A stretch of DNA of 64,000 nucleotides from Paenibacillus sonchi (GTDB taxonomy: Bacteria > Bacillota > Bacilli > Paenibacillales > Paenibacillaceae). The stretch is from the NCBI RefSeq assembly GCF_016772475.1, contig NZ_CP068595.1, positions 3,410,001 to 3,474,000 of the forward strand. The letters are read 5' to 3'. This document shows positions 15,149-55,019 of the stretch, piece by piece (positions within the stretch are counted from its first letter, which is position 1; each line of letters begins with the position of its first letter). The notes below the pieces were generated by a model. That model was given only the letters and a program-made list of their open reading frames with translations, had not been told where the DNA came from and did not search any database. The translations under genes were made by a program, and so were the position numbers.

Positions 15149-15319
15149 TTGTACAGAATGCAGGTAATGCGGCGAATTTAAGGCGGGAATGCCCGGATTC
15201 TTGTATAGAATGCAAGATTTAGGGTGAGATCAGGATGGAATGAGCAGAGATGTTGTACAGCGTGCAAGATTTGGAGTAAATGTGGGGTAGGGCGAGAAGA
15301 AATGTTGTACGGCGTGCAG
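15149..15319 (+). repeat. Dyad repeat element, family 1, four units at exact 52-bp spacing
   Basis: Four near-palindromes of the form TTGTAC-N3-RTGCAR start at 15149, 15201, 15253 and 15305, exactly 52 bp apart. A trailing GATTT-like segment is shared and the DNA between units is unrelated. Most of the 480-bp gap between sbp and the next gene is this element. See the findings for the other members. Confidence 0.8.
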
Positions 15320-32093: not shown

Positions 32094-32279
32094 CTGCATT
32101 TCGTGCAATAGAATTTATATGGTTTTGCGCCGAACCGCCTTCTGCTGTATTTTCTGCAATAGATTTTCGGATATCGCGTCCAAAACAGCTTTTCTAAGGG
32201 ATTCTAATGTACAGAGTGCAACAGATGGAGCTGTTCGGCTGGTTTATGGGTTATTCTGCTGCAGAGAATGCAATAGAAT
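32094..32279 (+). repeat. Dyad repeat element, family 1, spacing 51-62-52
   Basis: Four dyads begin at 32094, 32145, 32207 and 32259. The best read CTGTAT-TTT-CTGCAA followed by TAGATTTT, and ATGTAC-AGA-GTGCAA flanked by ATTCTA and CAGAT, so the full symmetric consensus is ATTCTR-YTGYAY-N3-RTRCAR-YAGAAT. The sequence between dyads is not shared with other copies. Confidence 0.8.
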
Positions 32280-41416: not shown

Positions 41417-41709
41417 TTGTATTATGTACAGCAGAATCAGGGAAAATGGACTCCAAAACGCATTCTGCTGTATTTCCTGCAACAGATTTTCGGAAATTGG
41501 CCCTATTAAGGTGGAATTCCAAAATTCTATCCTGAAATAACGATGTCCGATTCATACGACATGGTTATGGAAGCCAAATTGAGGGCCTTCTCCGAGATTG
41601 CATCGTCTGAAGTGCCGCCAATGGGCGGCATGAATGTCTATTGTACGTAGTGCAACAGAACACGAAAAAGGATAATTTCACCCTAATTCAACTGTACAAA
41701 ATACAACAG
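41417..41709 (+). repeat. Dyad repeat element, family 1, two 51-bp pairs
   Basis: Dyads start at 41417 and 41468 (51 bp) and at 41641 and 41692 (51 bp). The second, CTGTAT-TTC-CTGCAA-CAGATTTTCGG, is nearly identical to one at 32145. The pairs are 173 bp apart instead of about 61, as if about 112 bp had been inserted between them. Confidence 0.75.
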
Positions 41710-54841: not shown

Positions 54842-55019
54842 CTGTATTCCATACAACTAAAGTGAATGTTTTTATGTCCAAACCAGAGTTTATTGCACTT
54901 CGTACAATTAAAAAGCCTCCAATGGGCTGAAATCAATCCAAACGCTATTTTAGTTGTACGAAATACACTTAGCGCTGTCATGAGGCGGTTTTGCCTTCTT
55001 TTAACTGCACATAATACAC
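54842..55019 (+). repeat. Dyad repeat element, family 1 subtype, spacing 51-61-51
   Basis: Dyads at 54842 (CTGTAT-TCC-ATACAA), 54893 (TTGCAC-TTC-GTACAA), 54954 (TTGTAC-GAA-ATACAC) and 55005 (CTGCAC-ATA-ATACAC). The flanks read YTAAA instead of YAGAA, so this is a variant. The rest of the 540-bp gap holds only a short GC hairpin (CCCTGGT / ACCAGGG, 54702-54720). Confidence 0.8.

Follow-up and report, generated by a model that had tools for sequence, protein, structure and literature searches.

Intergenic repeats of the REP, BIME and REPIN type are dispersed palindromic units that often stand as inverted pairs (PMC6379681, PMC3733652), and in REPINs a GTAG or CGTC head lies beside a short palindrome, as described in PMC3733652. 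Other systems hold DNA in a curved path. In the accounts given of the Lrp/AsnC family, one dimer occupies each site, and the DNA, with its sites aligned on one face, is wrapped around the protein (PMC4046817, PMC2995911); archaeal Lrp sites are spaced by 2 or 3 turns, with ~100 bp wrapped (PMC2995911), and Ss-LrpB of Sulfolobus has the 15-bp consensus TTGCAAAATTTGCAA (PMC4046817). According to PMC8481266, RemA of Bacillus forms a ring of eight, perhaps 16, subunits, round which AT-rich DNA is proposed to be wrapped; protection comes in stretches of 7 bp that recur every ~10 bp, and the sites, which lie upstream of promoters, are poorly conserved. Gyrase sites of E. coli are presented in PMC6379681 as a degenerate motif of ~130 bp with a GC periodicity of 10.75 bp, likened to nucleosomes, and BIME-2 elements are enriched in them. 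LytTR proteins are described as recognizing direct repeats 11-12 bp apart (PMC6193735).

The DNA studied here (the window) is a stretch of 64,000 nucleotides from Paenibacillus sonchi, which carries four intergenic clusters of the dyad TTGYAYNNNRTRCAA. Judged from its sequence, the underlying unit is a dispersed Paenibacillus element of about 190-200 bp, with four predicted protein-binding sites and phased A/T tracts. It is intergenic, palindromic, dispersed and inverted in arrangement, like the REP, BIME and REPIN units described, but it places four dyads on one face at 5-6-5 turns, its A/T is phased and it comes in two matched arm classes. The dyad is close to that of Ss-LrpB (TTGCAAAATTTGCAA), including a length of 13-17 bp and an AT-rich centre, yet the sites are 5 and 6 turns apart over ~190 bp and mostly off promoters, compared with the 2 or 3 turns reported for Lrp. 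With the model published for RemA it shares the ~10-bp repeat of AT-rich DNA to be wrapped by a ring, whereas RemA sites are described as promoter-upstream and poorly conserved (PMC8481266). A long motif with helically phased composition, as published for gyrase over ~130 bp, is also seen in the quartet; the gyrase motif, however, is reported as degenerate, with a 10.75-bp period (10.1 bp in the quartet), a central cleavage site and no invariant dyads. A search of the literature on Paenibacillus repeats, palindromes and curvature, which had most subscription journals outside its coverage, found no description of such an element.

Results

Spacing of the dyads in the window and on the home chromosome

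A sequence-only reading of the window had listed 16 dyad start positions, and every one of them holds a dyad with at most two mismatches to TTGYAYNNNRTRCAA. The steps that it gave (52-52-52; 51-62-52; 51 and 51; 51-61-51) were likewise recovered (Table 1). Taken by itself, the window offers a weak count, hardly beyond chance (30 two-mismatch matches for 22.7 expected, with 30 or more in 2 of 100 shuffles), and the test was therefore needed at whole-genome scale. In the home genome of P. sonchi (G000), exact TTGYAYNNNRTRCAA occurs 61 times, compared with 3 times for the same pattern read backward.

Using 51 exact dyads as anchors and partners with at most two mismatches within 250 bp, we collected 159 dyad-dyad distances on the home chromosome, the 7.48-Mb molecule that bears the window. 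As many as 134 fell at 50-53, 61-63, 103-105, 112-114, 155-157 or 163-166 bp; the other 25 were scattered above 100 bp, and none lay at 1-49 bp. This test requires a single exact dyad as anchor and is unaffected by the step limits of the quartet search described below. The genome-wide scan and plot of neighbour distances that had been proposed beforehand thus yielded preferred spacings, with 50-53 and 61-63 bp among them. The backward pattern gave 78 distances with peaks of its own at 6, 46, 58, 98 and 110 bp, which we read as real dyads matched 6 bp off, so that this control is not a clean one. The spaced dyads are real.

Table 1. Positions of the dyad clusters and associated features in the window.
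Feature	Position	Strand	Remarks
Class B tandem array	15149..15319	+	four dyads (15149, 15201, 15253, 15305); 52-bp steps
Quartet 2, dyad 1	32094..32108	-	15-bp core, arms ATTCTR/YAGAAT, class A1; PWM 27.2
Quartet 2, dyad 2	32145..32159	-	PWM 27.3; 51 bp from dyad 1
Quartet 2, dyad 3	32207..32221	+	PWM 26.4; 62 bp from dyad 2
Quartet 2, dyad 4	32259..32273	+	PWM 26.9; 52 bp from dyad 3
Quartet 2, spacers with A/T phased at ~10 bp	32109..32258 (range takes in dyads 2 and 3)	.	z 4.0, p 0.0002 vs shuffled spacers
Quartet 3, dyads 1 and 2 (starts 41417, 41468)	41417..41482	-	class A1
TCTA (TAGA on other strand) flanking second repeat	41526-41529 and 41637-41640		
Second repeat between quartet 3 dyads 2 and 3	41530..41636	-	173-bp step = 62 + 111
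Quartet 3, dyads 3 and 4 (starts 41641, 41692)	41641..41706	+	
Quartet 4, dyads 1 and 2 (starts 54842, 54893)	54842..54907	-	class A2 arms (TTA/TAA)
Quartet 4, dyads 3 and 4 (starts 54954, 55005)	54954..55019	+	spacer phasing z 3.7

Architecture of the quartet and of the tandem arrays

Most loci resolve to four dyads with steps of 51-62-51 bp. The dyads of this unit stand at 0, 51, 113 and 164 bp. With orientation called from the T-tract or A-tract at the dyad centre, the leading pair is reversed and the trailing pair forward, and this order, --++, is two-fold symmetric. At 10.25 bp per turn the 164 bp put the dyads at helical turns 0, 5, 11 and 16. Each half-site reads RYTGYA, and the core is TTGYAY-N3-RTRCAA with an A/T centre. 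Among 76 chains of at least two dyads in stretches of the genomes G000, G001, G009 and G011, 28 were exactly --++ with 51-62-51 and another 22 were --++ with a single step off by 1 bp; the other 26 were partial, were longer arrays, had two steps off or had one dyad called on the opposite strand. A collection of 140 quartets was obtained by a search that allowed steps of 50-52, 61-63 and 50-52 bp only, so that its invariance and step figures, including the 94 of 140 that are exactly 51-62-51, arise partly by selection. The dyads at 41417/41468 and 41641/41692 had been taken for two separate pairs; the dyads stand, but they form a single quartet with 111 extra bases.

Window site 1 belongs to a second type, class B, made of tandem dyads in one orientation with 52-bp steps. 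The F plasmid carries a centromere-like locus, sopC, of tandem repeats that each contain a dyad, at near-integral helical spacing. Class B arrays resemble it, the difference being that sopC is one plasmid locus and the dyads described here occur at no fewer than 81 dispersed chromosomal places.

Several longer arrays were seen. Nine class B dyads with 51-52-bp steps and near-identical spacers (L028/L080, G000:C1:5319441-5319870) adjoin a gene that by eye resembles an IS4-family transposase. Two quartets 63 bp apart, with eight dyads at 51-62-51-63-51-62-51 (L078, G000:C1:2029078-2029484), lie between hisA-like and hisF-like genes of an apparent histidine operon, again by eye. Tandem-amplified quartets are present in G001 (four full copies plus one without a dyad at L075, three at L076 and three at L077) and in P. 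endophyticus, as an 18-dyad array (L206).

The arms ATTCTR/YAGAAT that had been proposed for all the dyads are right for sites 2 and 3; they do not apply to site 4, where the arms are TTA/TAA, nor to site 1, where they are of a third, non-palindromic type. Positions -2,-1 and 17,18 define two classes, CT...AG (A1) and TA...TA (A2), to which 64 and 63 of the 140 quartets belong, 13 being unassigned. Two dyads of the same quartet share their class in 657 pairs and differ in 4, where chance would make half of them differ. Spacers of A1 and A2 quartets are 0.303 identical, close to the 0.295 expected from the common A/T profile alone, which argues that the matching of classes is not simple copying. 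Exact A1/A2 dyads number 77/10 in the window genome, 84/8 in G015, 4/49 in G001 and 10/0 in G003. One A2-type match each was found in G006 and G010, two genomes without matches to the half-quartet model R1 (see below); with backward controls in 30 genomes, A1 gave 0 in all and A2 gave one, in G028. That the classes are hardly ever mixed in one quartet would imply at least two related proteins of different specificity in one cell.

Helical phasing of the A/T content of the spacers

The DNA between the dyads had been described as not conserved, with the spacing itself under constraint. As to letters, the first statement is correct, but an A/T phase of ~10.1 bp is kept through the whole element; spacing is indeed constrained, though not as the sole constraint, the phased spacers having been missed. 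We aligned 76 quartets that are less than 80% alike by their dyads and masked the dyads and arms. The A/T content of the spacers oscillates with a period of 10.1 bp and an amplitude of 0.255, compared with 0.035 and 0.038 in the two flanks at their best period and with a maximum of 0.033 in 1000 permutations within spacers. Phase agreement between elements was R 0.954, and the period ranged from 10.05 to 10.1 bp across the phasing analyses. The amplitude was still 0.239 after thinning to 30 quartets with spacers less than 42% alike, and by class it was 0.251 (A1), 0.196 (A2) and 0.282 (unassigned).

Element by element, z exceeded 2 in 75 of 76 quartets (lowest 1.4). Spacer phasing played no part in the selection of any locus, and the reference profile was built without the window elements; scored against shuffled spacers, window quartets 2 and 4 each gave p 0.0002, and site 3, on its two intact spacers only, gave z 3.2 and p 0.0004. 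The same phasing was found in 19 class B spacers from seven arrays, window site 1 among them (amplitude 0.207, p 0.0005).

The dinucleotides of the spacers are of the A-tract type, with AA at 0.267 (0.186 expected), TT at 0.249 (0.182 expected) and TA depleted to 0.077 (0.184 expected). Dyad centres share the phase of the A/T peaks. By eye, 17 such peaks run from position 8 to position 172, that is, over 16 turns of 10.25 bp, and the phased A/T stretches stop at the outer dyads.

Phasing of this kind raises the possibility of a topological site, at which gyrase or another topoisomerase wraps the element as it does on E. coli BIME-2, with the dyads binding a helper. The ~130-bp motif with its 10.75-bp GC periodicity and the enrichment on BIME-2, in the account of PMC6379681, suit such a site, as does the frequent position of quartets in convergent gaps or at gene 3' ends. 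Yet the quartet has a period of 10.05-10.1 bp, the degenerate gyrase motif contains nothing like its four nearly invariant dyads, and gyrase leaves the arm classes unexplained; we regard a topological site as improbable.

Independence of the two half-sites

A stem of 12 bp with a loop of 3 nt can be drawn for any of the dyads, which might therefore be hairpins of a transcript, in the manner of BOX, REP or riboswitch elements. To distinguish RNA from DNA reading, we counted Watson-Crick pairs at the variable paired core positions of 531 distinct dyads from the 140 quartets. Observed and expected numbers were 269 and 265.0 at positions 4/12, 211 and 213.2 at 1/15, 252 and 256.4 at 0/16, and 188 and 192.3 at 6/10, and A-C mismatches at paired core positions were as frequent as expected. 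Positions 4 and 12 vary only between C and T and between G and A, respectively. Some of the invariance stems from the choice of 80 of the loci by an exact triple (see below); in 88 home-genome dyads position 4 was Y in 86 and position 12 was R in 87.

Complementarity is strong in the arms, with 370 pairs at -1/17 (210.2 expected) and 395 at -2/18 (236.3 expected), but this coupling is accounted for by the two discrete arm classes. Furthermore, two of the four dyads have the opposite orientation, so that the wobbles of one strand are the mismatches of the other, and Rfam at the gathering threshold gave 0 matches in the 64000 bases of the window. The hairpin reading, largely refuted by half-site independence, is in our view extremely improbable. 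The paired core positions vary independently, which points to a dimer that reads two half-sites separately and which a hairpin does not explain.

A second repeat inserted in dyad arms

The extra bases of quartet 3 contain a second short repeat, 5'-CATTCATGCCGCC...TTATTTCAGGA-3', of 107 bp in the window (41530-41636) and ~124 bp in its closest copies. It has 12 matches in the home genome, the window copy and 11 other places, and nine of the 12 copies sit exactly in the right arm of a dyad, directly after TRCAAYAGA. TAGA is found on both sides in 8 of the 12. In two copies where the dyad arm reads CAGA, the far side is still TAGA, so TAGA may be part of the second repeat rather than a target duplication. 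The second repeat appears to target A1 dyads.

Distribution, genomic context and dispersal

The half-quartet was represented by a sequence model, R1, for which 34 of 44 half-elements were used (39 of them had 84 bases, and five of those were omitted); the 51-bp step is built into it and the 62-bp step is not. At E 0.1 it gave at least 152 half-element matches in the home genome, where 150 of 2676 first-look candidates were scored. All of the matches listed are chromosomal, and in most cases a minus half is followed ~111 bp on by a plus half. The matches listed mark at least 81 places on the home chromosome, with 5-16 per chromosome eighth and no single pole (Rayleigh p 0.64).

R1 found a match at E 0.001 in 15 of 30 genomes. 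The 19 congeners, home genome included, comprise 11 with 14-141 half-element matches, one with 1 and seven with 0; with eight of the 19 having one match or none, the element is dispensable. A match at E 1e-6 was present in 50 of 246 genomes of the order, representing 8 of 46 genera. Among the matches listed, 80 named loci, chosen by an exact 51-62 triple of TGYA-N5-TRCA, belong nearly all to Paenibacillus, the others being from Cohnella faecalis, one 'Bacillus sp.' and one uncultured Paenibacillaceae. One protein encoded next to the element is 80-85% identical to that of the home genome in the five other carriers compared and 64-67% identical in six low- or non-carriers, which indicates that presence of the element follows clade. 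The pepQ-like gene of window site 4 had no adjoining quartet in 13 relatives (11 congeners and 2 from other genera).

The dyads stand outside genes: of 122 quartets, not one falls within a called gene, and two partly overlap a called reading frame (genes were called with a simple caller, and neighbour genes were named mostly by eye). For 111 quartets with both neighbours, tandem and orthologous copies being counted separately, the flanking genes ran -- at 40, +- at 38 and ++ at 27, and diverged at 6. Most quartets are not promoter elements and lie mostly at gene 3' ends. With 27 of the 111 in ++ and 40 in -- gaps, some are upstream of a gene. Neighbour genes are mostly orthologues or tandem duplicates of one another.

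These counts bear on the possibility that the dyads are operators of a transcription factor, whose regulon members would each carry four of them. The dyads do look like operators, and the 15-bp Ss-LrpB consensus given in PMC4046817 (TTGCAAAATTTGCAA) is similar. However, only 6 of the 111 quartets are in divergent gaps; in the home genome such gaps hold 4 of 42 chains while making up 44 of 162 background gaps (at least 150 bp, same stretches). LacI-type regulators, as judged by eye, form the biggest cluster among the genes next to quartets; it adjoins 7 quartets, some of them mutually orthologous, and some quartets lie within operons (hisA/hisF and hemC, by eye). An operator function for the quartets as a set is thus very improbable.

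Three home copies have 85-88% of their spacer letters in common, whereas their ungapped flanks are 25-41% alike; in gapped alignments the similarity continues in some subfamilies for another 30-45 bp, at one end or at both. Since spacers are alike and flanks are not, copies disperse as a unit, which agrees with the earlier suggestion of a mobile repeat with fixed internal geometry. In 11 pairs of quartets found between the same orthologous genes, spacers differ at 458 of 979 positions and invariant positions at 3 of 264, the latter a lower bound on change because both copies had to be detectable, and two of the pairs come from one locus. Y/R positions differ at 59 of 176 in the same pairs, and 57 of these differences are transitions. 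In three of the 11 pairs the two copies differ in arm class and probably inserted separately. That quartets are kept at orthologous places speaks for some benefit; their dispersal and patchy occurrence speak for mobility.

Five aligned groups of copies showed no recognizable terminal inverted repeat or target duplication, the marks of a MITE; in these copies the outer dyads, 1 and 4, are inverted relative to each other, and the ends of the unit vary by subfamily. Nor was a transposase gene recognizable by eye between quartets that lie 2.7-2.9 kb apart at three loci (L149, L151 and L207).

A predicted wrapped particle

We propose, with a probability of roughly 0.6, that the quartet is a dispersed, non-autonomous, non-coding element that wraps ~16 helical turns round a sequence-specific protein oligomer. 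A dimer of the protein would bind each dyad through two major grooves, those on either side of the A/T minor groove at its centre. Four such dimers, or one oligomer offering four dimer sites, would hold the DNA on one face. The phased A-tracts would allow the full 16 turns to curve about the protein core in the fashion of a nucleosome, giving a particle of ~190 bp. It had been suggested beforehand that a dimeric protein binds and that the dyads all lie on one face; the present data fit this suggestion, which is strengthened by the independence of the half-sites and the 10-bp phasing of A/T. The role of the particle would most likely be either architectural, as a fixed wrapped or topological node between genes, or the spreading of the element itself.

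A purely selfish element is the alternative that the dispersal data bring up. The wrapped complex would then be a transposition complex, through which a protein encoded elsewhere copies or moves the quartet, the phased spacers would be needed for mobilization and the host would gain nothing. Dispersal as a unit, the range from 0 to 141 half-element matches among 19 congeners, the tandem amplification in G001 and P. endophyticus, and the small number of quartets between divergent genes would all be accommodated. On the other hand, neither ends of the usual kind nor a transposase gene was recognized in the copy groups and loci described above, and quartets stay intact at orthologous places while their spacers drift, which selection for mobility alone would not maintain. 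We therefore consider this alternative unlikely, though it deserves to be kept in mind.

The proposal of a wrapped particle can be taken further, on a more tentative footing. It is possible that a bacterial chromosome has ~80 wrapping sites encoded in its sequence, each 195-bp element specifying, by four dimer sites of matched class and by an A-tract in phase at each of the 16 turns, one particle like a nucleosome, and that at least two orthogonal protein specificities operate per cell. By analogy with the 16-mer proposed for RemA, a span of 16 turns would correspond to two gyres of an eightfold ring, and the element might form a fixed two-gyre superhelix between genes. If this is true, bacteria would possess, in dispersed elements, a DNA sequence code for positioned wrapped particles, in which the letters drift while the geometry stays, and positioned wrapped nodes between genes of bacterial chromosomes could be directly tested. 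The element could serve as bait for the wrapping protein, and the two matched arm classes should read out its specificity.

Candidate proteins

Searches of the Lrp/AsnC, RemA, LytTR and Y1 transposase families did not establish a cognate protein. Each of 30 genomes encodes 1-6 Lrp paralogs. The best-scoring one (75-78 bits) is found in 6 of 11 carriers and in 0 of the 8 other congeners, and a paralog with a CYW motif, followed at 20 selected places, is found in 9 of 11 carriers and also in G014 and G005; strict co-occurrence with the element was seen for none of the Lrp paralogs examined. No quartet stands beside the 30 Lrp paralog loci or the 20 selected ones, where single weak dyad matches were seen in L281, L308 and L318. 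RemA was rejected as a discriminating partner, being present in all 30 genomes, carriers and non-carriers alike.

The sequence-only reading had also offered a REPIN-like repeat as an alternative, a likeness that is not supported. For a REPIN mobilized by a RAYT, one could invoke its intergenic, palindromic and inverted arrangement and the presence of PF01797 (Y1_Tnp) in 4 of 6 carriers searched, part of a distribution over 7 of 19 genomes. But carriers G001 and G011 lack the family (zero hits), whereas G010 (5) and G002 (1), both without quartet matches, have it. Moreover, each arm of the element has two dyads, and the dyad logos contain no invariant GTAG or CGTC head, GTAG appearing in some A1 arms (CAGTAGA) as an R/Y variant. 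Having failed on the transposase test, mobilization by a RAYT was rejected, and we give it practically no chance.

A stand-alone LytTR gene of 109-112 aa occurs in 10 of 11 carriers and in G013, a congener without matches, but not in carrier G016; its absence elsewhere was judged from the lengths of the frames listed. Its locus has no quartet, and one single dyad match each was found in L322 and L324. We read the co-occurrence with carriers as shared ancestry. The locus itself (L319-L329; G000:C1:6889500-6897500 and relatives) is conserved in the 10 carriers and G013 and contains, in this order, a multi-spanning membrane protein, a peptide of ~40 aa ending by eye in PKELRK and the LytTR protein of 109-112 aa. 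We take it to be agr-like, the ~40-aa peptide presumably resembling the precursor of a cyclic autoinducer.
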